From assembly GCA_017442315.1 (NCBI GenBank), contig JAFRZX010000093.1:1-43081 (forward strand): DNA of 43,081 nt. Reading direction: 5' to 3'. The stretch is from Bacteroidales bacterium. GTDB lineage: Bacteria; Bacteroidota; Bacteroidia; Bacteroidales; UBA932. Of this stretch, positions 15,218-40,698 are shown in pieces; positions within the stretch are counted from its first letter, which is position 1, and each line of letters starts with the position of its first letter. Under the pieces are notes generated by a model. That model was not told the DNA's origin. It ran no database searches and saw nothing but the letters and a program-made list of their open reading frames with translations. The position numbers were made by a program, and so were the translations under genes.

Positions 15218-16272
15218 TCCTTACAACATCACTTATACTTGCTTCTGTATTCTTATGTACAGCAGCAGATGAAAAAGCAAGCGTGTCGGCAGCGGACAAT
15301 ACCACTGCCGACACGCTTAAAATTCTTGGAGTAGGCAATTCGTGGACCAGAGACTCCATGCGGTGGCTCAGCGCCATCGCCAAAAGCGCAGGACGTCCGG
15401 TAACCGTAGGACATGCTTATCTTGGCGGATCCACATTGGAGCAGCAATACAGAGGCATAGACGACCTCACTTTCACTTATAAGCACAGAGGACAGGACCA
15501 GATTGTACACGACACCTATCAATACTGGAAATACATTTGCTCGGAAAACCCGGTAAAGACACCGTCAGAAGGGTACAGAAACGGACTTGCCGGTATCGGT
15601 GTAACGCTTGAGAGCGTTGTAAAGGATGAACCCTGGGACATCATCGTCTTCCAGCCGCACGTGATAGTAAGGAACCATCTTCCCCAATACGGATTCGATA
15701 TAAACGATCTGGTGGAACGCATCAGAAGCATGATGGCTCCGGAGGTTGCCAATGAAGTCAGATGCGGGCTGATGGTACCTTTTTCATATCCGGAAGGGAA
15801 TACCGACTATCGGCAGAATGTTGCGGATGCATACAACGGTGGCATAAGACCTGAAACACAGGAAGAATGGGATGAGGTCTATGAAAGGATGCATTCCCAC
15901 ATACAGGAAGACATAAAGAAGGTTGCGCAGCATATGGGCAGGAACTGTTCATTCATAATCAATGTAGGACTGGCCATATATAATGCCCGCAAAGATCCGC
16001 ATCTGGCAGGATTCGGATATAAGCTGCAAAGGGCGCAGAACAACACCCATCTTGCCGAAGGGATACCGATGTACATAGCCAGCCTATGCTATGCCTATGA
16101 ACTTCTCGGAATCAGGTGTGAAGATGCTGTGTTCTATCCGGAAAAATCAACGGACAGTCATCTGACGGGAGACACCGGAGATACAATCAGAAATGATGTG
16201 GAAAACACACAGCATGATGCAGAAAGGGCGCGCCGCTGTGCCTGGCACGCCCAGAAAGAGCAAGGACTATAG
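15202..16272 (+). CDS. DUF4886 SGNH-hydrolase-like exported protein
   Basis: The 356-residue protein has an N-terminal signal peptide (about 1-22). The DUF4886 start, TLKILGVGNSWTRDSMRWL, holds the SGNH nucleophile block G-N-S (Ser47), and HAYLGGSTLEQ supplies the oxyanion glycines. A conserved C-terminal NNTHLAEGIPMYIASLCY supplies the His. In most SGNH enzymes the D-x-x-H pair has Asp; here the position is Asn. The family is found in Bacteroidota and presumed to deacylate carbohydrates. It overlaps the symporter gene by 16 bases and converges with the PUL regulator, overlapping it by 6 bases. Confidence 0.78.
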   Translation: MRNRIILTTSLILASVFLCTAADEKASVSAADNTTADTLKILGVGNSWTRDSMRWLSAIAKSAGRPVTVGHAYLGGSTLEQQYRGIDDLTFTYKHRGQDQIVHDTYQYWKYICSENPVKTPSEGYRNGLAGIGVTLESVVKDEPWDIIVFQPHVIVRNHLPQYGFDINDLVERIRSMMAPEVANEVRCGLMVPFSYPEGNTDYRQNVADAYNGGIRPETQEEWDEVYERMHSHIQEDIKKVAQHMGRNCSFIINVGLAIYNARKDPHLAGFGYKLQRAQNNTHLAEGIPMYIASLCYAYELLGIRCEDAVFYPEKSTDSHLTGDTGDTIRNDVENTQHDAERARRCAWHAQKEQGL

Positions 16273-17853
16273 ATTACGGATGAGGTCCTCGAACTCTTCC
16301 TTGGAGTGAAGGGCAGCCCTATGTATCCTGGTCCGATATGTATAGATCGTGGTCGGAGAACAGTTGAGAAAAGTGCTTATCTTGCCGCTTTCCGTAATGC
16401 CGATCCTTATTGCGGCAAGCATCCTCAATTCCGTACACAGCTTGTTGTTGACAGGCAGCGGAAAACGGGCTTCCTCCTTCAAAAGACCATTGACTTTATT
16501 CACGAAATCGGGATACAGGCCAAGAAATATCTCATCGAAGACCTTATAGTAGTCATTATACTCCTTGTAGGTGTCTGACGGAGACCTGAAGATCTTCACT
16601 ACAGCATCGATCCCCTTTGTCTTGTAGACGTTGTTGAGACGCCTCTTATAGTCATCCCTCTTCTTAAGATACTGGAGAGACAGTTCCATATACCTGAACA
16701 CGTAACTGTCCTTGATCTTGTTGGCATCGGCAAGGTCATGATTCACCTCTACCAGCTTGCAGTTCATCTTCTGAAGAATCTGACGTGATTCCTTCAGTTT
16801 CTTCCTCTTATGCATTGAATACTGAAGCAGAAACAGGATCATTACGATGAAGACGACAAGAATACAGACAATCCCGGTCATAAGACGCATTCTTTTGTCC
16901 GCGCTGTCGCGTTCTGCTTCATTGATCATCACATGCGTCTTTCCCGCATTGATATAGCGTGAATTGAAGTTGCCTGCAAATGCATCTGCCAGATTCAGCT
17001 CTACATATCGGTTCGCCTCGATATACATCTGGCGGTCATACAGCATTATGGCAAGTTCGTAAAGCGAAAGATAATCACGGCCTGCCGCCTTGAAATCATT
17101 TTCAGCTGACGTTGCAAGCCAGATGATACGTTCCGTCGCACATTCCTCCTTCATTCCGTACAATGTCGCGATATTATATGCTACCGATGCCTTGGTCTGG
17201 TAATCCGAGGCTCTGTCATACAAATTACGGAATATCTCAAGAGCAGCTTCCGTATCCCCGTTCTCCCTTTCATAGTGAGCCTTTATCTTACTTGCAAGTA
17301 CTGACGTGGAATCCAATGACAGATATTCTTTCCGCAAGGTCTGCAGGGCAGCCTTATGAGGAGACCTTCCGGAAGCAGCTACATCATGCTTATACAGCTG
17401 GTGATACATGGTGATTCCCTCAGACAGATACTTTATGAGCATGTCTTCATCCAGAGATGACCTGTCCAGTGCAAGATACTCATCCAGGGCTTCCATCTCA
17501 TTCATCCTGACCAGCCTCAGTTCCATATCCTTCATCTGCGTCAGCAATATTTCTTCAGAAGTCGAAGCATACCTCTTCATATACTTCAGGTATACCATGG
17601 AGGAATCCAGACTATGATGATAATATGCCATATACAGGTCCTTTGACAGTCTCCACCTCCCTGCATCCGGAGCCGTATCTTCAAAAACCGCCCTCAAGGA
17701 ATCCACGCGTGCATTCAGACAATTCTGCCATTGTTCGTTTTTCTGGATGACCTTGTCAAGGCTCTCCAGCGCCCCGACAATCTCATCCTTCTGGCAGGAT
17801 GGGACTGTCAAGACGAGGAAAAACATTAAAATATATGATCTTAGATTTCCCAT
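16267..17853 (-). CDS. DUF6377 membrane-bound TPR regulator of the polysaccharide locus
   Basis: The 528-residue protein has a signal peptide or lipobox (LTVPSC, Cys20) and a TPR-like all-helical sensor region (about 25-310). A membrane helix follows (about 325-346, LMTGIVCILVVFIVMILFLL), then a basic coiled-coil (347-380). The cytoplasmic C-terminus (about 470-515) has a helix-turn-helix (LAAIRIGITESGKISTFLNC, then SPTTIYTYRTRIHRAAL). This one-component architecture (DUF6377) occurs beside SusC/SusD loci in Bacteroidota, where it is thought to sense a released sugar and activate transcription. It is the last gene of the PUL strand, 31 bases after GH89, with its own -7 box. No anti-sigma/ECF pair is present. 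Confidence 0.85.
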   Translation of the reverse strand: MGNLRSYILMFFLVLTVPSCQKDEIVGALESLDKVIQKNEQWQNCLNARVDSLRAVFEDTAPDAGRWRLSKDLYMAYYHHSLDSSMVYLKYMKRYASTSEEILLTQMKDMELRLVRMNEMEALDEYLALDRSSLDEDMLIKYLSEGITMYHQLYKHDVAASGRSPHKAALQTLRKEYLSLDSTSVLASKIKAHYERENGDTEAALEIFRNLYDRASDYQTKASVAYNIATLYGMKEECATERIIWLATSAENDFKAAGRDYLSLYELAIMLYDRQMYIEANRYVELNLADAFAGNFNSRYINAGKTHVMINEAERDSADKRMRLMTGIVCILVVFIVMILFLLQYSMHKRKKLKESRQILQKMNCKLVEVNHDLADANKIKDSYVFRYMELSLQYLKKRDDYKRRLNNVYKTKGIDAVVKIFRSPSDTYKEYNDYYKVFDEIFLGLYPDFVNKVNGLLKEEARFPLPVNNKLCTELRMLAAIRIGITESGKISTFLNCSPTTIYTYRTRIHRAALHSKEEFEDLIRNL

Positions 17854-17872
17854 TTTCTATATTTTAGAATGG

Positions 17873-17880: not shown

Positions 17881-17884
17881 AGAT

Positions 17885-20023
17885 TTATTTGCATTCTATC
17901 AACGCAACTGCGGTTTCCAATGGATCAGGATCTGCTATAGATGAGGATTCATACGGAGCAGCAAGCCACTCTTCCTTCCACGGAGCCATGGCAGCCTTAT
18001 CCTGTCCATCCAGATGCTTTTCAAGACGTGGTATGTAATAGTCCTTGATAAGTCCAGCCCACATCCTGGCCGCATAATCTTCCTGAGCGCCACCCCAGAT
18101 GGTGACAAGACGTTTTGCGTCTGCCTCATATTTATCTTTAAGTTCAGGAGTATCTGCAGAAGCACGGGCAACTTCCACCCAATCAGTAAGATTCCTTTCC
18201 GGATGGGCTGCCAGTATACCGTCCACTGCAAGAAGGAGTTCTACCGTCTTGTCCTTTTCAGCACGCGCTTCTTTCATGTTTCCGTTTTCCATGGCGTCAA
18301 GAGCTGCCTTCCAATGACGGTCTGCCAGTTCAGCAATCCAGAATGCAGAGAACTCTATGGCATCTGCAACGTAAAGCGGCGAATCCGAACATTTGTCCCG
18401 ACATGACAGGAAAAGCCTCACGCCTTCGCCGAATGAATCATTCATATCATGCCTGCTGGGTCTTCTCTTGTCAAATGTGACAGTCTGCCACCTGTAGCGA
18501 GGATACGAATACAACGAGCTGTAGACTGTCTCATGGAAGAGCTTCCACGCCTGCAACATAGTCTCGTCAGCACATCCATAACGCGACTCGCACCAGTTTG
18601 CATACCATTCATCAAGGTCAATGGCCCTTTCACTCCAAGCAGCGTCCGCGAGCAGTTCGTAGACGACATCATTGTTGTCGAGGCCTTCCGGTGCTGAACC
18701 GACCCCGACAAGATTGCCCTTGACCGGAGAGTTCAATGCCTCTGCAAAGCCGCTTGCATACATATTCATATCACCTGTAGGCAGATGCTTGCCGCCGAAG
18801 TTCGGAGTAAAGCTGTATATCCATTTCTTGCCATAGAAACCATCGTGACGTTTCCAGGTCAGATCTATGTTCCATACCCACTTCGGATAGTCGTTGGCCA
18901 GATCTATGATTATCATCTTGTCATCAGGAACCTGAGAAAGAAGGGCCTGAAGACTCTCCTTTTCCCAGAACCAGTGACGGTTACCGAATGTCCAGCCCTG
19001 GGTCACCCATACTGCATCAGGATTGCCGGAAGCGATTGATTCGTAGATGGTCTTGCCATACTCTGCCATCAGGCTGCATTTACCTTCAAGGTCATCATCC
19101 GGAATAGGAAGGACCATCTCATTGAAACTGTCAGAAAGATAGAATTCATTCTTCCCGAATTCTTTTTCCCATTCCTGAACGAACAGTTTACCTATTTCCT
19201 TGAATTCAGGTGGGAAAGGAGAAAGCACAGCTGCATTGTAGGTACTGTCCATAGCACCCCACTTCAGATGAAATGCCTGAAGTTCAGGATGTTTCTTCAT
19301 ATATGCAGGAGGAATGAATCCGGCAAATGCCGGAGCGACAGGCCTCATCTGAAGACGCCTCATTTTATCCAGGATCTTGTGTTGAAGTTCTATCTGGCTT
19401 TCATGCCATCCGGCATTGAGAGGGCCGGACCATGTATTGAGATTACCCATACGATGCCATGGGAGATATGCCGCTCCAGTGAAGAATGCCTCAACTTCTT
19501 CCTCGCTGAGTCCGAGCTTAAGCCAGACCCGACGGGCAATGGCCTCGCTTGCTACTGTAGCCAGAGGCATATTGATGCCGTGCAGGGCCATCAGATCTAT
19601 TTCCTCCTCCCATTTCTTCCAGTCCCAATAAGGTGCTGTATATCCGAAAGTACACACATTCAAGAAGTTACGCAGTTCATATGGAGACTCTCCTTCAAGA
19701 AGACCATCCGGCCACTGCTGAGGAACGGTGAAATTTGTCCCACTCCATGATATCATAGCTCCGCAGCATGTCTGAAGATATTCATGAAATCCATAGCAGG
19801 CTGCCGGTCCGCTTGTAGCAGTAACCGAAACATTTCCACCATCCGCCTCAACCTTATAGCTGTCATATGGGCCCGACGACTCTGTGATTTCAACAGAAAG
19901 ACCTTCCGTAGTTCCAAAACGGTTCATTATCACCTCCAGAACAGCTTTTTCTGTCTTTGAAGTACCTGAGCAGGCTGTCAGACAAAGAGTCGTCAGAAAT
20001 ATAATTACAATGTTCTTTCTCAT
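17885..20023 (-). CDS. Alpha-N-acetylglucosaminidase, GH89 (NAGLU family), lipoprotein
   Basis: GH89 enzymes release terminal alpha-linked GlcNAc, for example from gastric-type mucin O-glycans or heparan-derived oligosaccharides. The 712-residue protein has a lipobox LTACSG (Cys18). Its N-terminal alpha/beta domain (about 25-105) has SGPAACYGFHEYLQ. The catalytic barrel has YWDWKKWEEEIDLMALHGIN, ELRNFLNVCTFGYT, LPWHRMGNLNTWSGPL, LSDSFNEM (Glu302) and GVGSAPEGLDNN (Glu446). These two acids match the expected acid/base and nucleophile positions. An alpha-helical C-terminal domain ends at 712. Length matches NAGLU. It is 18 bases downstream of the SGNH gene. Confidence 0.93.
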   Translation of the reverse strand: MRKNIVIIFLTTLCLTACSGTSKTEKAVLEVIMNRFGTTEGLSVEITESSGPYDSYKVEADGGNVSVTATSGPAACYGFHEYLQTCCGAMISWSGTNFTVPQQWPDGLLEGESPYELRNFLNVCTFGYTAPYWDWKKWEEEIDLMALHGINMPLATVASEAIARRVWLKLGLSEEEVEAFFTGAAYLPWHRMGNLNTWSGPLNAGWHESQIELQHKILDKMRRLQMRPVAPAFAGFIPPAYMKKHPELQAFHLKWGAMDSTYNAAVLSPFPPEFKEIGKLFVQEWEKEFGKNEFYLSDSFNEMVLPIPDDDLEGKCSLMAEYGKTIYESIASGNPDAVWVTQGWTFGNRHWFWEKESLQALLSQVPDDKMIIIDLANDYPKWVWNIDLTWKRHDGFYGKKWIYSFTPNFGGKHLPTGDMNMYASGFAEALNSPVKGNLVGVGSAPEGLDNNDVVYELLADAAWSERAIDLDEWYANWCESRYGCADETMLQAWKLFHETVYSSLYSYPRYRWQTVTFDKRRPSRHDMNDSFGEGVRLFLSCRDKCSDSPLYVADAIEFSAFWIAELADRHWKAALDAMENGNMKEARAEKDKTVELLLAVDGILAAHPERNLTDWVEVARASADTPELKDKYEADAKRLVTIWGGAQEDYAARMWAGLIKDYYIPRLEKHLDGQDKAAMAPWKEEWLAAPYESSSIADPDPLETAVALIECK

Positions 20024-20041
20024 TTTCTGTAACTGGTTCGT

Positions 20042-21130
20042 TTATCTCTTCTTGTCCAATATATCCAAAACATCCTTCTTTATCGACTCTGCCCATAAAG
20101 TGTAGCCGTAATCATCAGGATGAGTCGCATCCACAGATGTCTCATGAGATGGAGAAGTGGCGCATGGATGAATGAAATACACATTGTCGAATTTCCTGCA
20201 GACACGTTTCATCATCTTCTCTACAGCCTCCATCTTCTGCTTTTCCCTTTCATCCGCCACGACACTGAAATTGCGGCTTTCGCGATAGATTGTCTGCTGA
20301 AAGATCAGCGGAATGTCAGGATGAGCCTTACGTATCTTTTCCACAAAAGGTATCAGACGCTCTTCTATCTGCTCCACCGTTGGATTTGAAAAACAGTCAA
20401 ACAGGAAAGCATCCACATCAGCATCACAAAGGACATCTGCAAAATATGGCTGCATCTTGCAGTTTCCACTGCATCCCAGATTGAGCATCTGTATTCCTGT
20501 CATGCGCATCAGCTGCATCGGATAGCTCATACCCGGGCGGGATGTGCTTATGCCATGAGTGAAGCTGGATCCGAAGACACCGATCCGATATCTGAACGGA
20601 GATTCAAGCGATTCTATCACCGCCCCTTCTTCAACCCCGATAAGACAAGACTTCACCTCACTGTATATCGGAAGATACAGCATGCACTCCTTCATGGAAG
20701 AATCCATGTTCTTTATGATGACCGTATTCTTTTCAGGAGTGTTTCGTCCCGACACCCCTGACTCTGCATACAGCCATTTCCCATCCTTCCTGATATAGAG
20801 ATCATATCCGCGCAATGATATACCCATAGTATTCTGGCCATGGTTCATGTAGCCGTATTCCGTCTTGACGGAAATGGTCGTAGAGTTGGTCCTGAACAGT
20901 ACGGCAAGACCGGCAGAACAGCGGACCTGAGTGTTTTCTGACTTAGTAAAGCCCTTATATACGGTTGTGTCAACCCTATGATACGGATTGGACGTACCCT
21001 CGATTATCTTACCGATCAGATTCAGATCGGAAGCCTCGGTAAAGACATATCTTACATCCTTGGCTGTCTGGGCCGCCAGCAATGTACCGACGGCCATCAG
21101 GATCCAAAACAATATTGTCTTCTTCATCAT
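20042..21130 (-). CDS. SGNH/GDSL hydrolase with N-terminal beta domain, probable carbohydrate esterase
   Basis: The 362-residue exported protein (signal peptide about 1-21) has an N-terminal beta-sandwich (about 25-175). The SGNH domain has block I FGSSFTHG (Ser189), block II NLGCSGN (Gly219, Asn223) and block V DATHPDDYGY (Asp334, His337), a complete triad with oxyanion residues. Such two-domain esterases in polysaccharide loci generally remove acetyl or other acyl groups from sugars before glycosidases act; the exact ester is unknown. ATG 21130 starts the signal peptide 8 bases after the preceding stop. An earlier ATG at 21154 would overlap that gene. Confidence 0.82.
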   Translation of the reverse strand: MMKKTILFWILMAVGTLLAAQTAKDVRYVFTEASDLNLIGKIIEGTSNPYHRVDTTVYKGFTKSENTQVRCSAGLAVLFRTNSTTISVKTEYGYMNHGQNTMGISLRGYDLYIRKDGKWLYAESGVSGRNTPEKNTVIIKNMDSSMKECMLYLPIYSEVKSCLIGVEEGAVIESLESPFRYRIGVFGSSFTHGISTSRPGMSYPMQLMRMTGIQMLNLGCSGNCKMQPYFADVLCDADVDAFLFDCFSNPTVEQIEERLIPFVEKIRKAHPDIPLIFQQTIYRESRNFSVVADEREKQKMEAVEKMMKRVCRKFDNVYFIHPCATSPSHETSVDATHPDDYGYTLWAESIKKDVLDILDKKR

Positions 21131-21138
21131 TATTCTGT

Positions 21139-23436
21139 CTATTCTGTTGCCCATGGATCATATGCACCAGGGCACATCTTGTCCGAACCCCTCAGATAAC
21201 CACGACAGTCAGTGAACTGACCGTCTACAATCGCTCCGATATCGACAAGCCATTTGTAGAACTCTTCTTTAATACTATCATTTGCCTTGGTTGCGGCAAC
21301 CATATCCTCGGCAGTAACATAATCGAAGCCCTCAATGTTACCGTCCCATGTCCAGTAATTACCGGTTTCAGACCAAGCAAGACCGTTAAGATCAGTGGTC
21401 GCTGCACCTGTTCTGGTAGTATTCCAACCCTCAAGCCCATCAGAAAGTTCTGTCTTCACACCAAACGACATCTCAGTTTTCTGAGGTCCGCAGAGATTTG
21501 ACATGGACTTGAAATTGAAGTTGTCTCCATCTATCCCCTTTGACCAGAAGAAAGCATTCTCCTCATTATTCTCATCCATGATGATGTTGTTCGCCAAGAC
21601 TGCATCGACATCTGTAATACTTGCCATTCGATAAATGCCGGCATCAGTATAGCCGTTATCTATGTCATTGTGTATCAGTGTATTATTCACAAATACACAT
21701 GGACTGCTTATCGTAACCGGAGCACCTCCCTTGGAGTCAACCGTATTCTTTCCGAACGAACAGCCGTTTATGCCAACCTTCGTATTGGCATGAAGCGATC
21801 TGATAACGCATCCATACTGCTTGGCAGCAAGACCGTTTCCAGTAAAACGGCTATTGTTAATATACAGACTTGTACCGGATTTAACGCCCGTGACAGCAGT
21901 ATGGATCATTCCTCTGTTATAGGAAATATTACCGGAAAACAGGGTATTGTTGACATACACCTTTCCTGTTGCAAGGTTGATTGCCGAACCGCAGCCATAA
22001 TCATTGTTTAATTGAACTGTTTCCTTGTTATTTATGAACCTGCAGTTGTTGATTCTGACTCTTGGAAAGAATGCCTCTGTATTATTGGTTACACTTGTAT
22101 TCATCGCAACATAAAGTGCTGCACCATAAAATTTGTCTTTGGCATATAGAGCCTCATTTACAACTGCATCACGCAATGTGATTCCATCAAGAGTAAGGTC
22201 AGCCTTGTTGCGCACCGCTAGGATACCATACGTTCCTTTACCCGTGAATATCGTCTCATACGTTTCAGGATTTCTAGTCTTGTCTTTTCCACCGGAAGCA
22301 GCACAACCGCCAAAAAAATTGACAGGTACACTTCCTGCTTTAGGCGCAAGACCCCAATACAGATCCAGCTTCGGAGCATCTTCAGTTCCTAAGACATATT
22401 CTCCGGCAGCAAACCAGAAATTAGTATTCTCACATTTCTGACAGTGCGCATAAGCACGGCCTGCGTCCGTCTTAGGCGCAAAAAATGCCCTGATGAAATC
22501 TTCTCCTGCGGCATTCTCCCATGAAGATCCATCTCCTTTAGCACCAGGCTTGATGAAGAAATCCGTACGCATCTTATCCTGGATGTTTCCCAGATTGAGA
22601 ATTTCACCTCTTGCGATGGTCAGGTCCTTTTCATAATAGGCAGATCTCTGCTCGTTGAAATAATAAGCAATGAAACCTTCCTCAAAAGTATAATCAGGCC
22701 ATACCGCCACATATGCGACTTCTTCTGGTGAAAGGTCGCTGGCAGTAACATATCTTGTGTGATTGTCATTATCAACTGATGTCGCAGTAAAGGCACCTTC
22801 ATCATCGAAAGAGCAGAGAACATCTCCGGCTACATAATCTCTTACACCAGAATACAGACTCAACCTGTTTATTTTGCCGTTAGCTTTGAATGAATTATCT
22901 CCCATTTGAAATCTTACGATTCCTACAGCATGCTTGAAACTGAATGTGGGTTCTGCCGCAGATGCTTTTGCAACCATGATGTTAGCCGTCTTGAACGAGC
23001 CCGTCTCTGTCGGTATGGTCACTTGCACAGTTCCTGCTTCCGTGTCTGCAGTAGCCTCAACAGATGCCGGATAAACGGCATAGAAATCGGATTCAGCAAG
23101 CTCCGATGGCACAACCACAGAAAGCGTTGCGACACCATCTGCATCAATTGTTATGGTTCCGGTAGCATTGTCTGTCTCAGCGGCTCCCCATATTACTTTT
23201 ACCTCATCCCCATTCTCCCATATCACAGGAACTGTTCCATCTTCTCCGACATCTCCTAATGCCGTCTTGACAGAAGGCTCTCCTATGACAGCGTTGAATG
23301 TCAATGTCTTTACCGGACCATCATATCCGTTTTCTTCATTCCTTGCGGAAGCATCTTCCATTTCTGCCTTTGTACATGACGCGGCAAGAGCTACGATTAC
23401 TGCCGATGCAGCCAAAAATCTTGATATTCTTTTCAT
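21139..23436 (-). CDS. Fimbrillin-like / right-handed beta-helix surface lipoprotein (copy 2)
   Basis: The 765-residue lipoprotein starts MKRISRFLAASAVIVALAAS, with Cys21 in the lipobox ALAASC. Residues about 40-275 resemble the Bacteroidota fimbrillin-like fold (PVIWENGDEVKVIWG, YAVYPASVEA, FSFKHAVGIVRFQM). From FFIKPGAKGDGSSWENAAG (about 290) a parallel beta-helix region follows, with repeated Asn-rich rungs such as INNCRFINNKE, VNNTLFSGNISYN and INNSRFTGNG. It ends CRGYLRGSDKMCPGAYDP. It is clearly related to the protein at 27965-30178. A glycan-binding or adhesin role on the cell surface is likely; beta-helix lyase activity is possible but no catalytic site is evident. ATG 23436 begins the signal peptide. 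Confidence 0.8.
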   Translation of the reverse strand: MKRISRFLAASAVIVALAASCTKAEMEDASARNEENGYDGPVKTLTFNAVIGEPSVKTALGDVGEDGTVPVIWENGDEVKVIWGAAETDNATGTITIDADGVATLSVVVPSELAESDFYAVYPASVEATADTEAGTVQVTIPTETGSFKTANIMVAKASAAEPTFSFKHAVGIVRFQMGDNSFKANGKINRLSLYSGVRDYVAGDVLCSFDDEGAFTATSVDNDNHTRYVTASDLSPEEVAYVAVWPDYTFEEGFIAYYFNEQRSAYYEKDLTIARGEILNLGNIQDKMRTDFFIKPGAKGDGSSWENAAGEDFIRAFFAPKTDAGRAYAHCQKCENTNFWFAAGEYVLGTEDAPKLDLYWGLAPKAGSVPVNFFGGCAASGGKDKTRNPETYETIFTGKGTYGILAVRNKADLTLDGITLRDAVVNEALYAKDKFYGAALYVAMNTSVTNNTEAFFPRVRINNCRFINNKETVQLNNDYGCGSAINLATGKVYVNNTLFSGNISYNRGMIHTAVTGVKSGTSLYINNSRFTGNGLAAKQYGCVIRSLHANTKVGINGCSFGKNTVDSKGGAPVTISSPCVFVNNTLIHNDIDNGYTDAGIYRMASITDVDAVLANNIIMDENNEENAFFWSKGIDGDNFNFKSMSNLCGPQKTEMSFGVKTELSDGLEGWNTTRTGAATTDLNGLAWSETGNYWTWDGNIEGFDYVTAEDMVAATKANDSIKEEFYKWLVDIGAIVDGQFTDCRGYLRGSDKMCPGAYDPWATE

Positions 23437-23456
23437 GATCGTTTCAAATTTTAAAG

Positions 23457-23588
23457 TTACCAATCCAGATCGCGCCATATCGCATCCTCTGTATCTGTCG
23501 TAAAACTCTGACACAACAATCCCTCTGTGTAGAGCATAATCTCACGGCATTCCGGTGAGATGTAATGGGTTTCATCTTTTAACTTCAT
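23457..23588 (-). CDS. 43-residue peptide, short Bacteroidales-type small ORF
   Basis: ATG at 23588 opens a 43-codon frame ending TAA at 23457. It fills the otherwise unusually long gap between the BNR-EEP gene and the second beta-helix gene. The peptide begins MKLKDETHYISPECREIMLY and continues TEGLLCQSFTTDTED, ending AIWRDLDW. The pattern 'Y-I-x-P-E-x-x-x-I ... T-E-G-x-L-C-x-S' followed by an acidic tail recalls the short peptides (about 40-60 residues) often found before fimbrillin-like genes in Bacteroidales, whose function is unknown to me. It has no typical signal peptide. Spacing and strand match the operon. Confidence 0.6.
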   Translation of the reverse strand: MKLKDETHYISPECREIMLYTEGLLCQSFTTDTEDAIWRDLDW

Positions 23589-27959: not shown

Positions 27960-27964
27960 CTTTT

Positions 27965-30178: not shown

Positions 30179-30195
30179 AATCATATGCATCATTA

Positions 30196-31961: not shown

Positions 31962-33668
31962 CTATTCCTCCGGGGTTTCTGTAACAGTATCATCATCCTG
32001 AATTCCTTCATAAGCCGGATTGTTCAAGATATATCCGGTAATGGCGCATTCAGAATCAGGAATCGGGTAATATTCATGATATGGGCGTATATTGGATTTA
32101 AGCGTCTCATTAGGAGTCCATCTGACGACTTCATCATACCAGATTCCCCAGCGCACAAGATCGAACTTACGGTGCAGTTCTCCGGCCAGTTCGCGCGCTC
32201 TTTCGTCACGGACCAGCTGCATAATGGACTTATTATCAGAATATTCCGACAATTTATAAGGTTCTACACCGGCCCTTATCCTAGGATAGTTAAGGTATTC
32301 CAAAGCTTTCTGAAGGTCACCTTTCATGCAATAGCATTCCGCCATCATCTGAACGGCATCCGCATAGCGGAATATCTTGTAGTTGTTTGAATCATAGTTT
32401 GCCGTCCTGTTCGGTATCCAGAATTTCCTTCCGGCAAACGGACGTCCAAGTCTTTGTACCTCATCGAAGGTTTCCCCTGTTTCAAGGTTGCCCAGACCAA
32501 GCACGTAAAGGATTCTCCTGTCCAGTTTCTGGCCCTTGATCTCCCCTTTTCTGATTGCGTTCATATCGAGCTTGACCCGGTAACGGTTATTGTATGGCTC
32601 GGCAGAAGTGTCATAGGTGAGTGGTAGAGGACGGAAGATTCCGCTTGTGTATGCAGAAGATGTCGTTTCCTCCATTACCGGACCTGAAGCGGGCCTGAAG
32701 CAGCCGAACCTGTAGGATGCACGGACATTGGTATGGCTGGAAAGTTCCGTACCCCATTCAGGCATATAGACCCCGTCTAGTGTTCCATCTGCCTCTATTG
32801 TAGGATAATAATTGGTACAGACGGTACTGGTGAACTGGATGCCGTCCGCCTGCCATTCATGCTGAATCTCGAATATACTCTCGTTTGTATTCTTCTTCCA
32901 CCACACTGTCTCCTCCAGAGGATATGCAGATTCGGTAAGTGTACCATAAAGTGTTTCCAGTTCGGTCAAAGGCTCTAGTGCAAGAGACCAGTCCTGGTTC
33001 CACATTGCGAACTTGGCCATTAGCATCAGGCCAAGTGCATATCCGGCACGATTGCCCTTAACTTCACTTGTTCGTCTCTTCTGACCGTTCTCCTCCGTGA
33101 AATAAGGTATAGCATTCTCCTTGAGGTCCTCATACAGTGTCTGTCTGATTATGGATGCATCAGTGCGGGGCAGCTGACGGATCATCTCCAATGTCTCCAT
33201 ATCCTTGACCATACATGTATAGAAAGGGACACCGTCGAACACATTGGTCAGATAATAATAAAAGAATGCTCTCATGACTCTGGCTTCCGCCTGAAGAACC
33301 AGAGCATCGCTCTTGTCCAGATGCTCGGAAGCATTGATGCATTCTATGCATTCATTACATCTCATGACACCGTTATAACACCTTTTCCATATGTTTGAAG
33401 CTTGTCCTGAACGGGCTGGTGAGATATTGCAGGTCGCATCCACGATGGAAGTGTTCTGTGTCCACAGATCCGTGGCGCTTTCCATCATCATTGCTGATGA
33501 CGAATTGAACAGAAGTTTTGCTGGTCCATATACGGATTTGACCACAGATTCCGCCTGGGACATGTTCTGATATGAATGTTCGCGGTCAGCAAAAGACTCC
33601 CTGTCCTCTTCTAATGAACAGCCGCAGACTGCAAGCAGGGCTGCCAGATATATATAGATATGTTTCAT
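31962..33668 (-). CDS. SusD/RagB family starch-binding-like outer membrane lipoprotein
   Basis: SusD proteins cap the SusC transporter and capture oligosaccharides at the cell surface. The 568-residue lipoprotein (MKHIYIYLAALLAVCGCSLE; Cys17) has the TPR-like scaffold with WKRCYNGVMRCNECI and LVLQAEARVMRAFFYYYLTNVFDGVPF (about 90-150). The C-terminal RagB domain has KIFRYADAVQMMAECYCMKG, LEYLNYPRIRAG, LVRDERARELAGELHRKFDLVRWG and YYPIPDSE. All family landmarks are present. An in-frame ATG at 33674 adds two residues. It lies 12 bases after susC. Confidence 0.95.
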   Translation of the reverse strand: MKHIYIYLAALLAVCGCSLEEDRESFADREHSYQNMSQAESVVKSVYGPAKLLFNSSSAMMMESATDLWTQNTSIVDATCNISPARSGQASNIWKRCYNGVMRCNECIECINASEHLDKSDALVLQAEARVMRAFFYYYLTNVFDGVPFYTCMVKDMETLEMIRQLPRTDASIIRQTLYEDLKENAIPYFTEENGQKRRTSEVKGNRAGYALGLMLMAKFAMWNQDWSLALEPLTELETLYGTLTESAYPLEETVWWKKNTNESIFEIQHEWQADGIQFTSTVCTNYYPTIEADGTLDGVYMPEWGTELSSHTNVRASYRFGCFRPASGPVMEETTSSAYTSGIFRPLPLTYDTSAEPYNNRYRVKLDMNAIRKGEIKGQKLDRRILYVLGLGNLETGETFDEVQRLGRPFAGRKFWIPNRTANYDSNNYKIFRYADAVQMMAECYCMKGDLQKALEYLNYPRIRAGVEPYKLSEYSDNKSIMQLVRDERARELAGELHRKFDLVRWGIWYDEVVRWTPNETLKSNIRPYHEYYPIPDSECAITGYILNNPAYEGIQDDDTVTETPEE

Positions 33669-33680
33669 ACTCATAATGTA

Positions 33681-36600
33681 TTAGAATCGCATCTGAACTG
33701 AAAATACAATCTTCCGTGAAGTAGGATATGAGTTCATGTCCACACGACGAAGGGTAGAATCACCGCTTTCCGTAGATACATCCGGGTCAAATCCGGGATA
33801 TTCTGCCCAGAGCCACAGATTGCTGCCCGACAATCCCAAGGTAAGACTACGGCAGAATGCCTTCCTCTTTTTAGCAAAATTGAATGTATACTGAAGACTC
33901 ACATCCTTTATACGGAGGTATGACGCATCGTACACGAAATTGTCTCCAGGCATCATGATGTCAGAAGTTCCCGGCCTTGGAATATCGGATGTAGGGTTCT
34001 CCCATGACCACGCATCAAGCATATACCTGTACTGGTTTGTGTACTGGCCTCCTCCCATATAGAATTCGGAATAGTTATATATCTTTCCGCCAAGTGAATA
34101 TGCCAGATATACAGAAAGTTTGAAATTATATATGTTGAAGGTGTTCTGGAATCCTCCATGGATTATCGGATCTGCTGATCCGAGGTATACAAGGTCCTTG
34201 TTGGAAAGTACGCCGTCATGATCCTGGTCCACATAACGGGGCACACCAGGACTGTTTGCCACAGAAAGGTTCACATCCCTATAGGCATATTCCTTGGTGA
34301 TCTTGTTTTCCTGAAATTCCTCCTCATTGTGGAAGACGCCAGCATACTGGAACCCCCAGAGCGCATTCAGTGGATAACCGGCCTTATATCCGTAGATCAT
34401 GAATGGATTGGCTCCCGGGGATTTTACACTTGATACATAATCCTCATGTCCGATATCCTCCACCATCTGCCTGTTGTGGGATACAGTAAGCACTGTGGTC
34501 CATCCGAAGTTCTTTCTCTCAACATTATGTGTCTCCAATGTCAGTTCCACTCCCTTGTTGCTTGTCTTTCCAAGATTCTTGAAGACACTGGTATAACCGG
34601 TTGAATGAGGGGTAGAGACCGACAGCAACAGATCTGAAGTCGTTGAATAATATGCCTCAAGTTCCATATTGATTCTGCCGGAAAGAAACGATCCCTCCAG
34701 AGCAGCATTGTACTGGTCGGTCTTCTCCCATGTAAGATCCGGATTGGCAAGCCTGGACGGATAGTAAACAACTCCCATGGTGCCGTCAAAGATGTAGTTT
34801 GAGGTCGATGAACCATACTGTTGAAGAGACCTGTATGCTGAAATCGCATCATTTCCGCTTCGACCGGCACTCAGTCTCAAAGACAGATCGTCTACCCACC
34901 CTGCCTTTTTAAGGAAAGGCTCGTTCTTGATGTTCCATTTGAATGCGGCAGACGGGAAGAAACCCCATTTTCTGTTGGCTGCAAAGTTGGAAGAACCGTC
35001 GACTCGGCCTGTGACAGTAAGATAATAGCGGCTTCGGTAATTATAGTCGACACGGCCGAACACTGACTGGCGTGTAACCTGAGTCTTTCCTGAACTGATT
35101 GTATAGTTCTCCTTGCTGGAGATACCGTTGAGGTTATTCCACAGCAGGTCGTCCATAACAAGGCCGTCTGCCCTGACTGAAGTATTGGCATTGGTATTCC
35201 TGGATGCGGAATATCCGGCCATAACCTTGAGATTGTGCCTTCTGTTGAACTTGGCCGTATATGTGATCGTGTTTTCCGTACTGAGGAGGAGACCTTCGCC
35301 TTCTGTCTTCAATGCCTCGGAACCCTCCTCATCCCGTCTCTTCGGAAGATCGTTCGGCCAGAAATGATACAGGTGGTTCTGGGTCAGTCTCACAGAATTC
35401 TGACTGTTTATGACAAGACCTTTCACCGGTTTTATGGTGAACTCCATCGCATCTGTATTATACCACTGGGTCTTGTAATAGTCTTCATATTCAATTGAGG
35501 CTACAGGGGTATTGATGAGAGACCCGTTCTCGACCCTAGGGTTGGTAGTATCCATCGGACCAATGATAGGAGGGAGATATATCGCTCCATTTGAATATCC
35601 AGAACCACTGAATACAGCCTTGCTGAGGTCTGTTTTCCTGTAGCTTGTGGATATCTTCCATCCCACCGTAAGCCATTTTGTGAAATCGTGAGAAAAATTG
35701 AACCTTCCGGAAACCCTCTGTACCCCCGTATCCTTGACTATACCACGCATATCCGTAAATGACAGCGAAGTAAACCAGGTATGTCCCTTGGTCTTGCTGC
35801 TGGCACTCACGTTATAGTTCTGATAAGGCGCTACTTGAGAAATCGCACCAAGCCAGTCTGTATCTGCGGAATAGTCTTCAGGATCCTCGACTGGAGTGAA
35901 TACCTTGCTGACTCCTCTTTTGTAAGCATTCCAATAGCGCAGATATTCATCCTTATTCATCAGGTCCAGTTTCTTGGCCAGCCATGCAGCTCCGGCTTCC
36001 GCCTTCACATTCACATTGACCTTTTCCGTCTTTCCTGTCTTGGTGGTGATGAGTATGACTCCATTGGCGCCACGCGAACCGTATATCGCTGTCGAGGATG
36101 CATCTTTAAGCACTGATATGCTCTCTATGTCATCTGAATTCAGATCGGCAAGGTCATCAATGGCATCCATCACTCCGTCCACTACAATGAGAGGCTCGTT
36201 TGATGCTGTGATGGAACGAGTTCCTCTGACGCGTATGGACGTAGTTGCTCCCGGTTCTCCGGTAGTGCTCATAATGTCCACACCTGCAATCCTACCTTGC
36301 ATGGCCTGGTCGATGGAAAGGACAGGAGTATCCGCCACTTCGCTCATCTTGACAGTAGCTACCGAACCCGTCAGGTCCTCTTTTCTGGATGTTCCATAAC
36401 CGATGACCACAACCTCTTCCAATGCCGTATGGTCAGGAACAAGGAGTACATCAACCTCCGTTCTGTCTCCGACGGCGATTTCCTGTGACAAGTATGAGAG
36501 AAATGAAAATACCAATACGCTTTCTCCTGACCCTAAAGTAATCGAATAGCGTCCATCCAGATCGGTCACGGTTCCGCCGCTACCTCCCAGAGGCACGACA

Positions 36601-36746
36601 CCGGCTCCGATAAGAGGCTCTCCATGCTCATCTGTCACCTTTCCGGTAATCGTACGGGACGATTGGGCATACAACCCGGCCGGCAGAAGGGACAGCAGGA
36701 CAAGAGCCACTGAACAAATTTTAATTTGAAATAATTTCATATTCAT
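33681..36746 (-). CDS. SusC/RagA family TonB-linked outer membrane transporter
   Basis: SusC proteins import oligosaccharides across the outer membrane with energy from TonB-ExbBD. The 1021-residue protein has a signal peptide (about 1-28), a CarboxypepD_reg-like domain (about 32-112, TITGKVTDEHGEPLIGAGVV), the SusC hallmark EEVVVIGYGTSRKEDLTGSV (about 115-135), and a plug domain with SIDQAMQGRIAGVDI and SISVLKDASSTAIYGSRGANG. A 22-strand barrel ends in the C-terminal Phe (FSVQMRF). The ATG at 36746 overlaps the preceding stop as TAATG, so that start is preferred over 36740. No N-terminal STN domain is present, which fits control by the DUF6377 protein and not by an ECF/anti-sigma pair. Confidence 0.96.
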   Translation of the reverse strand: MNMKLFQIKICSVALVLLSLLPAGLYAQSSRTITGKVTDEHGEPLIGAGVVPLGGSGGTVTDLDGRYSITLGSGESVLVFSFLSYLSQEIAVGDRTEVDVLLVPDHTALEEVVVIGYGTSRKEDLTGSVATVKMSEVADTPVLSIDQAMQGRIAGVDIMSTTGEPGATTSIRVRGTRSITASNEPLIVVDGVMDAIDDLADLNSDDIESISVLKDASSTAIYGSRGANGVILITTKTGKTEKVNVNVKAEAGAAWLAKKLDLMNKDEYLRYWNAYKRGVSKVFTPVEDPEDYSADTDWLGAISQVAPYQNYNVSASSKTKGHTWFTSLSFTDMRGIVKDTGVQRVSGRFNFSHDFTKWLTVGWKISTSYRKTDLSKAVFSGSGYSNGAIYLPPIIGPMDTTNPRVENGSLINTPVASIEYEDYYKTQWYNTDAMEFTIKPVKGLVINSQNSVRLTQNHLYHFWPNDLPKRRDEEGSEALKTEGEGLLLSTENTITYTAKFNRRHNLKVMAGYSASRNTNANTSVRADGLVMDDLLWNNLNGISSKENYTISSGKTQVTRQSVFGRVDYNYRSRYYLTVTGRVDGSSNFAANRKWGFFPSAAFKWNIKNEPFLKKAGWVDDLSLRLSAGRSGNDAISAYRSLQQYGSSTSNYIFDGTMGVVYYPSRLANPDLTWEKTDQYNAALEGSFLSGRINMELEAYYSTTSDLLLSVSTPHSTGYTSVFKNLGKTSNKGVELTLETHNVERKNFGWTTVLTVSHNRQMVEDIGHEDYVSSVKSPGANPFMIYGYKAGYPLNALWGFQYAGVFHNEEEFQENKITKEYAYRDVNLSVANSPGVPRYVDQDHDGVLSNKDLVYLGSADPIIHGGFQNTFNIYNFKLSVYLAYSLGGKIYNYSEFYMGGGQYTNQYRYMLDAWSWENPTSDIPRPGTSDIMMPGDNFVYDASYLRIKDVSLQYTFNFAKKRKAFCRSLTLGLSGSNLWLWAEYPGFDPDVSTESGDSTLRRVDMNSYPTSRKIVFSVQMRF

Positions 36747-38392
36747 TATTCTGATCTGTATTTTTCTATTGTGAATTCCTTCGGTCTGGACATTCTTTCC
36801 GTAAAGGTCCGGCCAAACTCATCAGTGACATTGATCTCAATGGTACTTTTGGCCTTGGATGCCTTTGCACTGAAGATATTCACCGAGCGAGACGGTTGTG
36901 TATCACTCAGGCCCTCAGTGTACATCAGCATATACAACGGGTCATATGATGTCTTTCTCGTCACAGGCAGCTCCTTTGTACCCTCCTTTACGGATATCTT
37001 CCATCCCGGGCGGTAATCCCAGATGTTGATAAGTATTTCATTGCCGTCGTCTGCACCCCAGATTCCGTCCGTATACTCCATCTCCGGCAGATTCATCATA
37101 TTCCTGTCGTATGAACGGAAAGCATACGAATCAGGTTTGCCGAACGCCTTGAAACCGGCTGTCATCGTTTTGCCGTTCCAGGAAAGAAGACGATAGCCTC
37201 CAGGGGCACCGGACGTACATATGTTCAGACCGGACTTGACCGATGTAGTCCAGAAGTTGCCACATACAGCGCCACAGTTCCACTCCGTGACAGTCCACAT
37301 ATCTCCTTCAGGATTCTCGACAGGCATATTGTGATTGGAATACATCGTATGCGTATGGGCGCTGAGAAACAGGACATTCTCATATTCCCTGAAAGGGGCT
37401 GTGATTTCTGCAACGCTGGCATTTACAGATTTTGGATATGAACCGTAGGATCCCTTTGCCGTAAACAACGGTATATGCAATGATACCACTATAGGAGTAT
37501 CCTTTGATACAAAGGAAAGATCCTGTCTCAACCATTCCATATCCGTTTCGGTCACTCCTCTCCAGCAACCTCTGCTGTCCTTGTCTGTTGTCCCACCCGT
37601 ATCGATAGTGATCACATCATCTAAAGATATATAGTGGACGTGACCTATGTTGTAGGAATAACAGGTCGGTCCCTGCTGCTTCCTGTATGACTGCTGGCAT
37701 GTCCAGTCCTCACCGGTAAGATTGAACTCGCTCATTGAGTCATATTGCATGTCGTGGTCGTGATTTCCGACAGTATTGAAGATGGTCAGGCCGGCTATAC
37801 GGTCTACCTCTGTCAGATATTCCGGAATACCATAATCGTTGGCATACCAGTACCAATCCCAGGTCATATCACCCAATGTCAAGCCATAAACGACACTTCC
37901 TGCCATATCCGAGACCAGATCATTCAGTTCCGGAAGTACAGTATTACGGAAAGCTGCAGCTGACTTGCTGTTGTAAAGATGTATATCTCCCATCACTACC
38001 ATAGTGTGGTTTTCCTGGCTGGTTTCCTTTCGGAGATTGAAATCCATCCTTTCGGGAACACTCCTGTCCTGCTTCAGATTTCTCCAGAAACTTGCAGAAT
38101 TTCCGATAGCAGATTCCATCCTGTATCCTCCCGGCAAGGATATGAATACATGACCGTTCCTCTTCTCCGAATCAAGCCTGTAAATACCGTTACGGTCTGT
38201 TGCCGTCACAAGCACTCCGTCAGAAACGACTACACCGGCCAGAGGCGAACCGCTGCACATGACACGCCCATATATTGTAGCTCCTGCGGCATCTATGGTG
38301 TCCGCAGATTCCCTGGATGGCATCTCATTGGCGCAAGACAATACGACAAACGGTATAAGCAGGTAAAATAATATGATGTTTCTGGTCTTCAT
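36746..38392 (-). CDS. Calcineurin-like phosphoesterase lipoprotein (three-domain)
   Basis: The 548-residue lipoprotein (lipobox VVLSC, Cys20) has an N-terminal Ig-like domain (about 38-120, GRVMCSGSPLAGVVVSDG). The metallophosphoesterase core is about 128-355: GDIH (Asp136, His138), LGDMTWD (Asp174), GNHDHD (Asn210-His211), SLHIP (His305) and SAHTHTMYS (His346, His348). A C-terminal beta domain follows (about 390-540). This architecture is common in Bacteroidota polysaccharide loci and removes phosphate or cleaves phosphodiesters on unknown substrates. Its ATG overlaps the GH3 stop as ATGA. Confidence 0.88.
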   Translation of the reverse strand: MKTRNIILFYLLIPFVVLSCANEMPSRESADTIDAAGATIYGRVMCSGSPLAGVVVSDGVLVTATDRNGIYRLDSEKRNGHVFISLPGGYRMESAIGNSASFWRNLKQDRSVPERMDFNLRKETSQENHTMVVMGDIHLYNSKSAAAFRNTVLPELNDLVSDMAGSVVYGLTLGDMTWDWYWYANDYGIPEYLTEVDRIAGLTIFNTVGNHDHDMQYDSMSEFNLTGEDWTCQQSYRKQQGPTCYSYNIGHVHYISLDDVITIDTGGTTDKDSRGCWRGVTETDMEWLRQDLSFVSKDTPIVVSLHIPLFTAKGSYGSYPKSVNASVAEITAPFREYENVLFLSAHTHTMYSNHNMPVENPEGDMWTVTEWNCGAVCGNFWTTSVKSGLNICTSGAPGGYRLLSWNGKTMTAGFKAFGKPDSYAFRSYDRNMMNLPEMEYTDGIWGADDGNEILINIWDYRPGWKISVKEGTKELPVTRKTSYDPLYMLMYTEGLSDTQPSRSVNIFSAKASKAKSTIEINVTDEFGRTFTERMSRPKEFTIEKYRSE

Positions 38393-40698
38393 CTGACTGT
38401 CAATTTTTCGTGCATAAGGTCTTCGTCCGCTGATGACGGACCAATCATGACCGCAAAATCGCCCGGTTCAACAACATACTGCATGTCAAGGCCGCAGAAA
38501 GCAAGTTTGTCTGGAGTGACAGTAAATTCCACCGTACGGCTCTCACCTGCCTTAAGACTCACCCGCATGAAATCCTTGAGTTCCTTGATTGGTCTGGCAA
38601 CCTGGGATACCATGTCACGGATATACAACTGGACCACCTCTTCACCGTCCATCTTACCGGTATTGGTAACAGTCACATATGCCTTAACCGATCCGTCGAC
38701 ATCCATATAGTTGCTGCTGAGGTGCATGTCTGAATATTCATAAGACGTATATGACAAACCATATCCGAAGTTCCATAAAGGTCTGGATGATGTCACCCTG
38801 TACGGATGATAATAATGCATGGCCTTATGATTATAATAAGATTGAATCTGGCCCACAGAACGCGGGATGGTTATCGGAAGACGGGCAGATGGATTGACAT
38901 CTCCGAACAGGATTTCAGCAACAGCCTGACCACCGTACATTCCAGGCTCCCATGCCTCAATAATGGCCGGTATATGTTCTGATTCCCACTCGATGCTCAA
39001 AGGGCGTCCTGATGCGAGAATAAGGATAACAGGCTTGCCCGATGCTTCTACACGGCGTATCAGTTCATGTTGCAGACCAGGAAGATCTATATCGGAACGG
39101 TCTGCATTTTCTCCGGCAGTCTTCATCTTGCTGTCCTTCCCTCTGAACGAATAGTCTCCGGCCACTACTATGCACACGTCAGCCTTCTTCGCCTCTGCCT
39201 CCGCCTTTAGTATCTTGTCCATGGTCATGCGTGTCGGAAAACGTCCTTGGTCCACATGAATATAATCATTGCCGGGCGCCACCTGACGCAGTCCTTCAAG
39301 TATCGTAGTATAGTTGTCAGGATGCTGGTATGACACCCAGTCACCCATCATGTTTATGTCATCCGAATTGATTCCGGTCACAAGAATCCTCTTCTTTTCA
39401 TATTTATCCAAAGGAAGCAGGTCCGCTTCATTCTTCAGCAGTATGATCGCTTTCCGCGCGGCTTCAAGAGCAGTCTGGCGATGCTCTGCACATAATCTGT
39501 CGCCACCTTTGGCCAAGGTATCAGCATAAGGCTTTTCAAAAAGGCCTAGACGGAATTTCGCATTAAGAATTCTCCTTACCGATTCATCGATACGATCTTC
39601 GGATATCTTACCTTCGCGTACAAGTTCACATACAAGTACATTCCATTCAGGACCGTGCATATGCATGTCGACACCGGCCATGATTCCTTGATAAAAGGCG
39701 TCCTTGTGGTCAACCGCTGTGAAATGGGCATCTGACAATTTCTCAAGATCCTTCCAATCACTGATGACAAAGCCGTCAAACCCCCATTCGTCGCGCAGAA
39801 GATCTGTCAGAAGCCATCTGTTGCTGTGGCATGGAACTCCACCTATGTCATTATGTGACGGCATCAAAGTAAGGGCCCCAGCCTCTATACCTCTGATATA
39901 AGGGGGAAAAAACTGGTCCCGGAGCGTTCTCTCTGATATTTCAGCCGGAGCACAATTGGTTCCGTTGACGGGTTGACTGCCGCCTGTAAGATGTTTTATG
40001 CAGGCAAGTACATCCTCGTCCGAATTCAGAGAACCCTGATATCCCTTTACCGTCTCAGCACCCATGACTCCTACCAGATATGGATCTTCCCCATAAGTTT
40101 CTCCGCATCTACCCCATCTGGCATCACGTGCGATCTCTATATTGGGATTGAATGTCCAATGCATGTTCATTGCACGCATTTCCTTTGCTGTCTGGCGGGC
40201 TATTGTGTATGCCAGCTGCAGGTCAAAAGAAGAAGCAACTCCTATATTTGTAGGATAAACCGTATTATCCGGACAATATGCATTGCCATGTATGGCGTCA
40301 ATGCCGAAAAGCAAAGGGATACCCAATCTGCTGCCCATCGCCATCTTCTGAAGTTCCTCTGCTTCTGATGCAGTCTGGACGTGCAGAAAAGATCCGACCT
40401 GACCGGTACGTACCATTTCCTTTATATCTTCTGTAGTGAATCCCGGATAATAGGCAAATTCATCACCCTGCATCATCTGTTTCTGAGAGAGTTTCTTCTG
40501 ACGCGTCTGCTCCATCATTTCCAGTCCGACAAACTGATTCATCTGACCGACCTTCTCCTCAAGAGTCATTCTGGACAAGAGGTCTTCCACTCTGGAATCA
40601 ACAGATGCATCGGGATCGAGATAACGACATTTTTCCTCTGTGCAGGACAAAAGGAGCAGCACAGGAATACAAACCAATGTCCAGATTCTTGATTTCAT
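38389..40698 (-). CDS. GH3 family beta-glycosidase (BglX-like), lipoprotein
   Basis: GH3 enzymes remove terminal beta-linked glucose, xylose or GlcNAc. The 769-residue lipoprotein (lipobox LLLSC, Cys19) has the (beta/alpha)8 domain with RLGIPLLFGIDAIHGNAY, FNPNIEIARDARWGRCGETYGEDPYL and FDGFVISDWKDL (nucleophile Asp314). The alpha/beta sandwich follows (AARKAIILLKNEADLLPLDK), then a fibronectin III-like domain (about 660-760). Domain order and length match BglX-type beta-glucosidases. The common KHFAGYG segment reads KHLTGGSQPVNGTN. It is the first gene of the operon, behind the -7 box at 40737-40730. The exact linkage cannot be told from sequence. Confidence 0.93.
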   Translation of the reverse strand: MKSRIWTLVCIPVLLLLSCTEEKCRYLDPDASVDSRVEDLLSRMTLEEKVGQMNQFVGLEMMEQTRQKKLSQKQMMQGDEFAYYPGFTTEDIKEMVRTGQVGSFLHVQTASEAEELQKMAMGSRLGIPLLFGIDAIHGNAYCPDNTVYPTNIGVASSFDLQLAYTIARQTAKEMRAMNMHWTFNPNIEIARDARWGRCGETYGEDPYLVGVMGAETVKGYQGSLNSDEDVLACIKHLTGGSQPVNGTNCAPAEISERTLRDQFFPPYIRGIEAGALTLMPSHNDIGGVPCHSNRWLLTDLLRDEWGFDGFVISDWKDLEKLSDAHFTAVDHKDAFYQGIMAGVDMHMHGPEWNVLVCELVREGKISEDRIDESVRRILNAKFRLGLFEKPYADTLAKGGDRLCAEHRQTALEAARKAIILLKNEADLLPLDKYEKKRILVTGINSDDINMMGDWVSYQHPDNYTTILEGLRQVAPGNDYIHVDQGRFPTRMTMDKILKAEAEAKKADVCIVVAGDYSFRGKDSKMKTAGENADRSDIDLPGLQHELIRRVEASGKPVILILASGRPLSIEWESEHIPAIIEAWEPGMYGGQAVAEILFGDVNPSARLPITIPRSVGQIQSYYNHKAMHYYHPYRVTSSRPLWNFGYGLSYTSYEYSDMHLSSNYMDVDGSVKAYVTVTNTGKMDGEEVVQLYIRDMVSQVARPIKELKDFMRVSLKAGESRTVEFTVTPDKLAFCGLDMQYVVEPGDFAVMIGPSSADEDLMHEKLTVR

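Follow-up and report, generated by a model that had tools for sequence, protein, structure and literature searches.

A Bacteroidales operon that combines GH89 and GH3 glycoside hydrolases with three phosphoesterase domains is a candidate hybrid of polysaccharide and phosphate utilization loci

The window analyzed here, 43,081 nucleotides of contig C67 from a Bacteroidales genome of 2.80 Mb (88.6% complete), contains a minus-strand run of 14 genes (40698-16267) that combines an adjacent susC/susD pair and co-directional GH3, GH89, and SGNH esterase genes, the components of a polysaccharide utilization locus (PUL), with two EEP-family phosphoesterases and a calcineurin-like phosphoesterase (MPE). 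Judging from the sequence, this locus is probably, although far from certainly, a hybrid of a PUL and a phosphate utilization system (PUS) that serves to process a phosphorylated glycoconjugate bearing alpha-linked N-acetylglucosamine (alpha-GlcNAc). The original prediction placed 15 genes between 16267 and 40698; there are 14, and the adjacent DUF4886 protein gene (15202-16272, +) lies on the opposite strand and converges on the end of the operon. All the domains named in that prediction (GH3, MetallophosN/C, SusC, SusD, the three NAGLU domains of GH89, the free EEP, the BNR propeller joined to an EEP, and the GxDLY/GDSL_3 esterase) were recovered in their places. The 13 gene junctions range from a 19-base overlap to a 113-base gap, with 12 of the 13 not exceeding 31 bases, and a terminator-like hairpin on the minus strand (40902-40931; one found versus 0.1 expected in 40600-41000) stands upstream of the operon, between it and a TlpA-like gene. 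Because of these tight junctions and the hairpin that separates the TlpA-like gene, the 14 genes likely form a single predicted operon. No Bacteroidetes-type promoter pattern was found near the operon, the sole match in the window being at 1600-1632 (0.64 expected).

The operon, all of it on the minus strand, opens with a GH3 protein carrying an Fn3-like domain (38389-40698), for which the nearest NCBIfam models are the beta-glucosidase BglX and an exo-beta-1,3/1,6-glucosidase, both under the cut-off. It is followed by the MPE with MetallophosN and MetallophosC domains (36746-38392), the SusC-type TonB-dependent transporter (33681-36746; TIGR04056, 832 bits, above the cut-off), and the SusD-type surface protein (31962-33674) that was used as the query for the comparison of 14 loci described below. 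Three lipoproteins come next, namely a BACON-domain protein of 126 amino acids (31578-31958), a protein with five Big_2 immunoglobulin-like domains (30196-31581) in which HL_N-beta, presumably a lyase-associated domain without a catalytic role, also scores above the cut-off, and a surface protein without a Pfam match (27965-30193) that is labeled beta-helix-like by resemblance alone and has relatives in other loci of the same SusD type. The free EEP (27096-27983) and the propeller-EEP (23628-25484), in which a BNR_2-type propeller is fused to the phosphoesterase domain, bracket a DUF5689-like secreted protein (25490-27076; under the Pfam cut-off). The propeller-EEP, for which the predicted model has a predicted local distance difference test score (pLDDT) of 73.1 and a predicted template modeling score of 0.52, has a second copy in the same genome that is 42% identical over the matched part. 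The remaining genes encode an Mfa_like_1 surface protein (21139-23514; under the cut-off, with a listed GTG start that is probably too early), which is related to the relatives of the 27965-30193 protein; the SGNH esterase (20042-21154; GxDLY and Lipase_GDSL_3); the GH89 alpha-N-acetylglucosaminidase (17885-20023), with NAGLU N, TIM-barrel, and C domains all above the Pfam cut-off; and a DUF6377 protein (16267-17853), the putative regulator of the locus. GH3, the MPE, and GH89 each carry a lipoprotein-type signal.

The metal-site motifs expected for these enzymes were recovered by motif searches from both EEPs as well as from the MPE. The latter contains GDIH, GDMTW, GNHD, SLH, and AHTH, and both EEPs contain the N, E, H, DxN, D, and SDH motifs; that these define the EEP superfamily, and which of their residues are catalytic, is taken here as an assumption. 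Both EEPs match PDB entries 3g6s, 3mpr, and 4c1r, the last of which is named mannosyl-6-phosphatase (E values of 1.2e-22 and 5.9e-32). No PDB relative of the MPE was detected with phmmer, and none was found for one EEP of the sister GH89 loci introduced below. The possibility that the phosphoesterases are chance or decayed passengers was rejected in view of the intact motifs and their enrichment near SusD proteins of this type. The predicted model of the DUF5689-like protein (pLDDT of 79.7) yields weak matches to jelly-roll folds (cleaved adhesin, CBM4), none of the 50 matches listed having a TM score above 0.21 when normalized by query length; these are compatible with glycan binding without being evidence for it.

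To compare loci built on the same SusD type, 398 genomes of the family were searched at a match threshold of E ≤ 1e-90. Matches were found in at least eight genomes, all of one genus, and yielded 14 loci (13 search rows and one added locus on contig C171 at 102.8 kb), a lower bound given that at most three SusD candidates were scored per genome. Genomic contexts were fetched for 13 of the 14, that is, for all except G361 C25. As a control, 139 other SusD genes from the same eight genomes were used, drawn from the 150 listed among 222 SusD matches; in the neighbor counts, three short fragment rows were excluded and three rows under the cut-off were retained. An EEP, MPE, or S1/P1 nuclease-family gene lies within 18 kb in all 14 loci versus 40 of the 139 control genes, and within 8 kb in 13 of 14 versus 27 of 139. 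At least two of these phosphoesterase classes occur within 18 kb in 11 of the 14 loci versus 2 of the 139 control genes, and S1/P1 nuclease-family genes are found near 7 of the 14. Glycoside hydrolases were detected in 9 of the 13 fetched loci, with some of the GH3 matches just 22 to 29% identical to the GH3 of the window. The SusD type of the window tracks phosphoesterases more strictly than glycoside hydrolases, which favors the phosphate-utilization side of the hybrid. The sequence comparison suggests that the phosphoesterases are not incidental to the locus.

The genome of the window harbors three additional loci with a SusD of this type (C171 at 100-129 kb, C171 at 133-146 kb, and C23). 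They combine, in varying mixes, DUF5689, S1/P1 nuclease-family, EEP, propeller-EEP, and MPE genes with GH3-like, GH30, GH39, GH97, GH28, and FAD-oxidoreductase genes. The segment of C171 between 100000 and 146000 (G000; L039, L040, L055) holds two paralogous SusC/D loci in succession and carries an S1/P1 nuclease-family gene, several DUF5689 proteins, and the second propeller-EEP. Two unusual proteins were also observed in another genome, G254, using our own hidden Markov models (HMMs): a single protein with a tandem pair of EEP domains (L103:8319-10478) and a GH3 and a GH97 within one frame (L103:3-3728).

The nearest orthologous locus, G321 C28, shares SusD (70% identity), SusC (68%), GH3 (75%), and MPE (54%) with the window. 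Its counterpart of the free EEP is the N-terminal part, 49% identical to the window protein, of an 852-residue protein in which GH13 follows EEP (L071:12775-15333, -). Downstream of this fusion are genes for a GFO/IDH protein, a GDPD-family protein, and an MFS protein, the last being nearest to phosphoglycerate, glycerol-3-phosphate, and hexose-phosphate carriers, all under the cut-offs.

The association between GH89 and EEP was examined in 299 genomes of the family and 393 of the order, with EEP proximity determined by HMMs built from these loci, a cut of 8 kb in the family and tree counts, and fusions confirmed with Pfam. The family search gave 103 rows, and contexts were obtained for 74, including the window and excluding 29 of the 30 weakest; no GH89 open reading frame (ORF) was called in L135, L139, and L149, that of L131 is fragmentary, and several contexts end at contig edges. 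The order search gave 15 rows, of which 12 contributed new contexts, the other three being the window and two G041 rows that had already been included. Of the 71 GH89 ORFs examined in the family, 13 have an EEP fused to them or within 8 kb. These comprise the five closest relatives of the window protein, four GH89s that are the second such enzyme in those loci, three fusion proteins, and one more ORF. At the level of the order, EEP linkage is seen for the four closest GH89s (56 to 58% identical) and not for the eight more distant ones (38 to 44%), two of which are on contigs of 5 to 6 kb. In a FastTree phylogeny of 88 rows, the window GH89 belongs to a clade of 10 members from three families (support of 100), and all 10 are EEP-linked. 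The other nine have an EEP nearby or fused, in a type of locus different from that of the window. Outside this clade, 12 of 78 GH89s are EEP-linked, and 8 of the 12 are second GH89s from the loci that the clade members occupy. Explaining the EEP-link label takes a minimum of 5 changes over the tree versus a mean of 19.7 for shuffled labels, and none of 500 shuffles gave a value as low, a count that near-copies in the tree help to keep down.

Four GH89-EEP fusions were identified, spread over three parts of the GH89 tree. The EEP is C-terminal in L092:9320-12073, L099:7753-10590, and L100:7892-10870, the last of which adjoins a GH125, and N-terminal in L167:8915-11773. The SusC proteins of three sister loci are 26 to 30% identical to that of the window, so the pairing of GH89 and EEP recurs on a different backbone. 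It is possible, and proposed here only tentatively, that GH89 and EEP constitute a recurring two-enzyme module in the order, joined by fusion in three or more regions of the GH89 tree and found with two or more SusC/D backbones, and that this module is the signature of a hitherto undescribed locus class for alpha-GlcN(Ac) phosphoglycoconjugates.

The usual order in the sister loci is SusC-SusD-EEP (one to three copies)-other genes-GH89-glycerate kinase-GntP permease. Eight of the nine also have a second GH89, which in the sister form comes after the permease and, where one is present, an HGSNAT-like gene. Glycerate kinase and GntP permease are found in eight of the nine (L093-L096 and L164-L167, as fragments in L095) and are absent in L097. 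An HGSNAT-family gene scores above the Pfam cut-off in three sister loci and has a relative in L097; HGSNAT_cat is the family that acetylates terminal alpha-glucosamine (alpha-GlcN) in lysosomes. Another HGSNAT gene adjoins an EEP-less GH89 on a short contig, L171. Five of the 10 sister EEPs scanned pass the cut-off of the nuclease-like domain of PGAP2IP, which presumably has a role in glycosylphosphatidylinositol (GPI) lipids in eukaryotes. These genes hint at a terminal alpha-GlcN(Ac) beside a phosphodiester and perhaps glycerate; for the sister form, they suggest a natural substrate with alpha-GlcN(Ac), a phosphoester, and possibly glycerate. Because no HGSNAT match was found in the genome of the window and no PGAP2IP match in its EEPs, this hint is not extended to the window.

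Under the hybrid reading, the glycan would be captured at the surface by SusD together with the BACON, Big_2, DUF5689-like, and other surface proteins, and fragments would be imported through SusC. Phosphate would be removed by the two EEPs and the calcineurin-like enzyme, acyl groups by the SGNH esterase, and terminal alpha-GlcNAc by GH89, and GH3 would trim a beta-linked sugar, all as the respective families predict. The best-supported step, in view of the repeated fusion and adjacency, is that phosphate removal and GH89 action may be coupled on one molecule; any dependence of GH89 on the removal of phosphate, or of phosphate removal on GH89, is a conjecture prompted by the fusions. That phosphate and alpha-GlcNAc reside on one substrate, as originally proposed, gains from the four fusions, the nine sister loci in which the two enzymes are paired or fused, and the EEP-GH13 orthologue.

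Several observations weigh against this interpretation. An EEP, MPE, or S1/P1 gene within 18 kb is also a feature of 29% of the other listed SusD genes, and the compared loci are mutually related, so that P values overstate their independence. No glycoside hydrolase was found among the scanned ORFs of G254 C79, G357 C21, G321 C49, and G361 C16 at 11 kb. Most of the GH89 ORFs in the family (58 of 71) have no EEP within 8 kb, and the number of fusion origins is unremarkable when taken by itself (21 of 500 shuffles gave a value as low). Furthermore, neither of two EEPs from one sister locus shows significant similarity to the free EEP of the window, and one of the two matches the propeller-EEP only weakly (2e-5). 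The sister EEPs thus appear to represent a different subfamily, and the GH89-EEP link would transfer to the window by analogy; the dissimilarity points to repeated recruitment of the fold rather than to one inherited pair.

Among the competing explanations, the operon could scavenge phosphate from assorted organophosphates or nucleic acids in the manner of a PUS, with GH89, GH3, and the esterase serving elsewhere or trimming attachments. In the parts of the publications consulted, phosphatase-bearing SusCD-like loci are induced by phosphate depletion in Flavobacterium (PMC8115612), and phosphodiesterases occur in 576 of 14,713 susC/D loci lacking known carbohydrate-active enzymes (CAZymes), sulfatases, and peptidases, with nucleic acids suggested as targets (Lapebie et al., PMC6499787). 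The consulted part of another report (PMC8459023) lists a DUF5689 protein as one of those required for natural transformation in Riemerella, which keeps the nucleic-acid explanation alive. The S1/P1 nuclease-family genes near half of the 14 loci, and the 4 of 13 fetched loci with no glycoside hydrolase among the scanned ORFs, fit as well. However, the existence of four GH89-EEP proteins and one EEP-GH13 protein ties the EEPs to glycans, and glycoside hydrolases accompany the other nine fetched loci, which leaves this explanation rather unlikely. An ordinary alpha-GlcNAc locus of the mucin or heparan type, in which the phosphoesterases would be chance companions or relics, would agree with the propeller belonging to BNR_2, repeats that presumably occur in sialidases too, and with the activity of characterized GH89s on GlcNAc-alpha-1,4-Gal and heparosan oligosaccharides, as given in the consulted part of PMC8225759. 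It is very unlikely in the face of the intact motifs, the enrichment near the SusD type, and the fusions, and no sulfatase or lyase catalytic domain scores above the cut-off in the locus.

Two further explanations name a particular phosphorylated substrate, and each has a low probability. In the case of a GPI-like or glycosylinositol phosphoceramide (GIPC)-like glucosaminyl-inositol phospholipid, GH89 would take alpha-GlcNAc, with GlcN acetylated first if necessary, and the phosphodiester would be cut by an EEP resembling sphingomyelinase/PGAP2IP. The PGAP2IP matches of half of the scanned sister EEPs, HGSNAT_cat in three sister loci with a relative in a fourth, and the GH125 beside one fusion speak for such a lipid. 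Conversely, PGAP2IP matches are missing from the window EEPs and from three of the GH89-EEP fusions, and an HGSNAT match from the window genome; the presence of HGSNAT beside the EEP-less GH89 of L171 indicates that it follows GH89 more than the GH89-EEP pair; neither an inositol nor a ceramide enzyme was observed in the operon; and the glycerate kinase and GntP permease of eight sister loci would be left unexplained. A bacterial phosphopolymer, of the teichoic acid type or another, that is substituted with alpha-GlcNAc or alpha-Glc is just as improbable a substrate. It could account for the EEP-GH13 fusion that G321 possesses where the window has an EEP and, further on, GH89, as well as for the GDPD-family protein and the sub-cut-off match to phosphate-ester carriers that follow it, and the SGNH esterase could strip esters such as alanyl. 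Yet seven of the eight genomes have GDPD genes, with none detected in the genome of the window, so the neighbor in G321 may be incidental and is given little weight, and the papers listed for teichoic acid together with PULs show no such locus at the level of titles and abstract openings.

The preferred reading remains a PUL/PUS hybrid, with candidate substrates that include GPI/GIPC-like lipids and teichoic-type polymers. Of the possible substrates put forward originally (teichoic acid, GPI, and mucin), neutral alpha-GlcNAc mucin alone fits worst. On the periphery of the window, a ribosomal protein S3 gene (42294-43037, -) lies at the end, placing the locus close to a ribosomal gene.

Gut glycan foraging has been studied mainly for neutral, uronic, and sulfated glycans. 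The operon of this gut-type bacterium, together with the GH89-EEP fusions in related bacteria, suggests an unrecognized food source: if the module recurs as proposed, phosphorylated glycoconjugates, be they lipid anchors, bacterial phosphopolymers, or something unnamed, would be regular food. The enzymes involved are small and testable, and they include single-chain GH89-EEP proteins, which offer handles for finding the substrate.

Known systems resemble the locus in part. Heparan sulfate PULs are characterized by lyases and sulfatases beside GH89 and GH88, and yeast alpha-mannan PULs by the mannan enzymes GH92, GH76, and GH99. The former type was rejected for lack of any sulfatase or lyase catalytic domain in the window locus and the latter for lack of GH92, GH76, and GH99, the three GH92 genes of the genome being on another contig. 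The mannan PUL nevertheless shares with the window a glycan-locus EEP of similar sequence, a mannosyl-6-phosphatase (enzyme name from PDB 4c1r) that we take to be BT3783. The bacterial enzymes CpGH89 and Bt3590 belong to the same GH89 family; in the consulted part of their description (PMC8225759), "phosph" does not occur and no phosphatase partner is described. Literature searches on GH89 with phosphodiester, phosphatase, GPI, or glycerate kinase, in which few subscription journals are covered, returned no GH89-EEP locus among the matches listed. Within the same coverage, the claim that no locus with this set had been described went uncontradicted, but the principle is not new, as SusCD loci with phosphatases appear in the consulted parts of two studies (PMC8115612; PMC6499787). 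The loci of Lapebie et al. (2019) likewise place SusC/D beside phosphodiesterase-type proteins; in the part consulted (PMC6499787), that set is CAZyme-free and built on PF00149/PF01663, whereas the window has EEPs and MetallophosN/C beside CAZymes. In composition, the locus also resembles the PUS of Flavobacterium, in which the PusCD pair lies beside phosphomonoesterases and phosphodiesterases and which, in the consulted part of its description (PMC8115612), is contrasted, as PUS I and II, with CAZy-holding PULs. The window operon has the SusCD pair and the phosphoesterases of such a system and differs from it in holding GH89, GH3, and an esterase inside. SusCD loci with phosphatases are already published as PUS, and the CAZyme-bearing form found in the window adds to that known principle.

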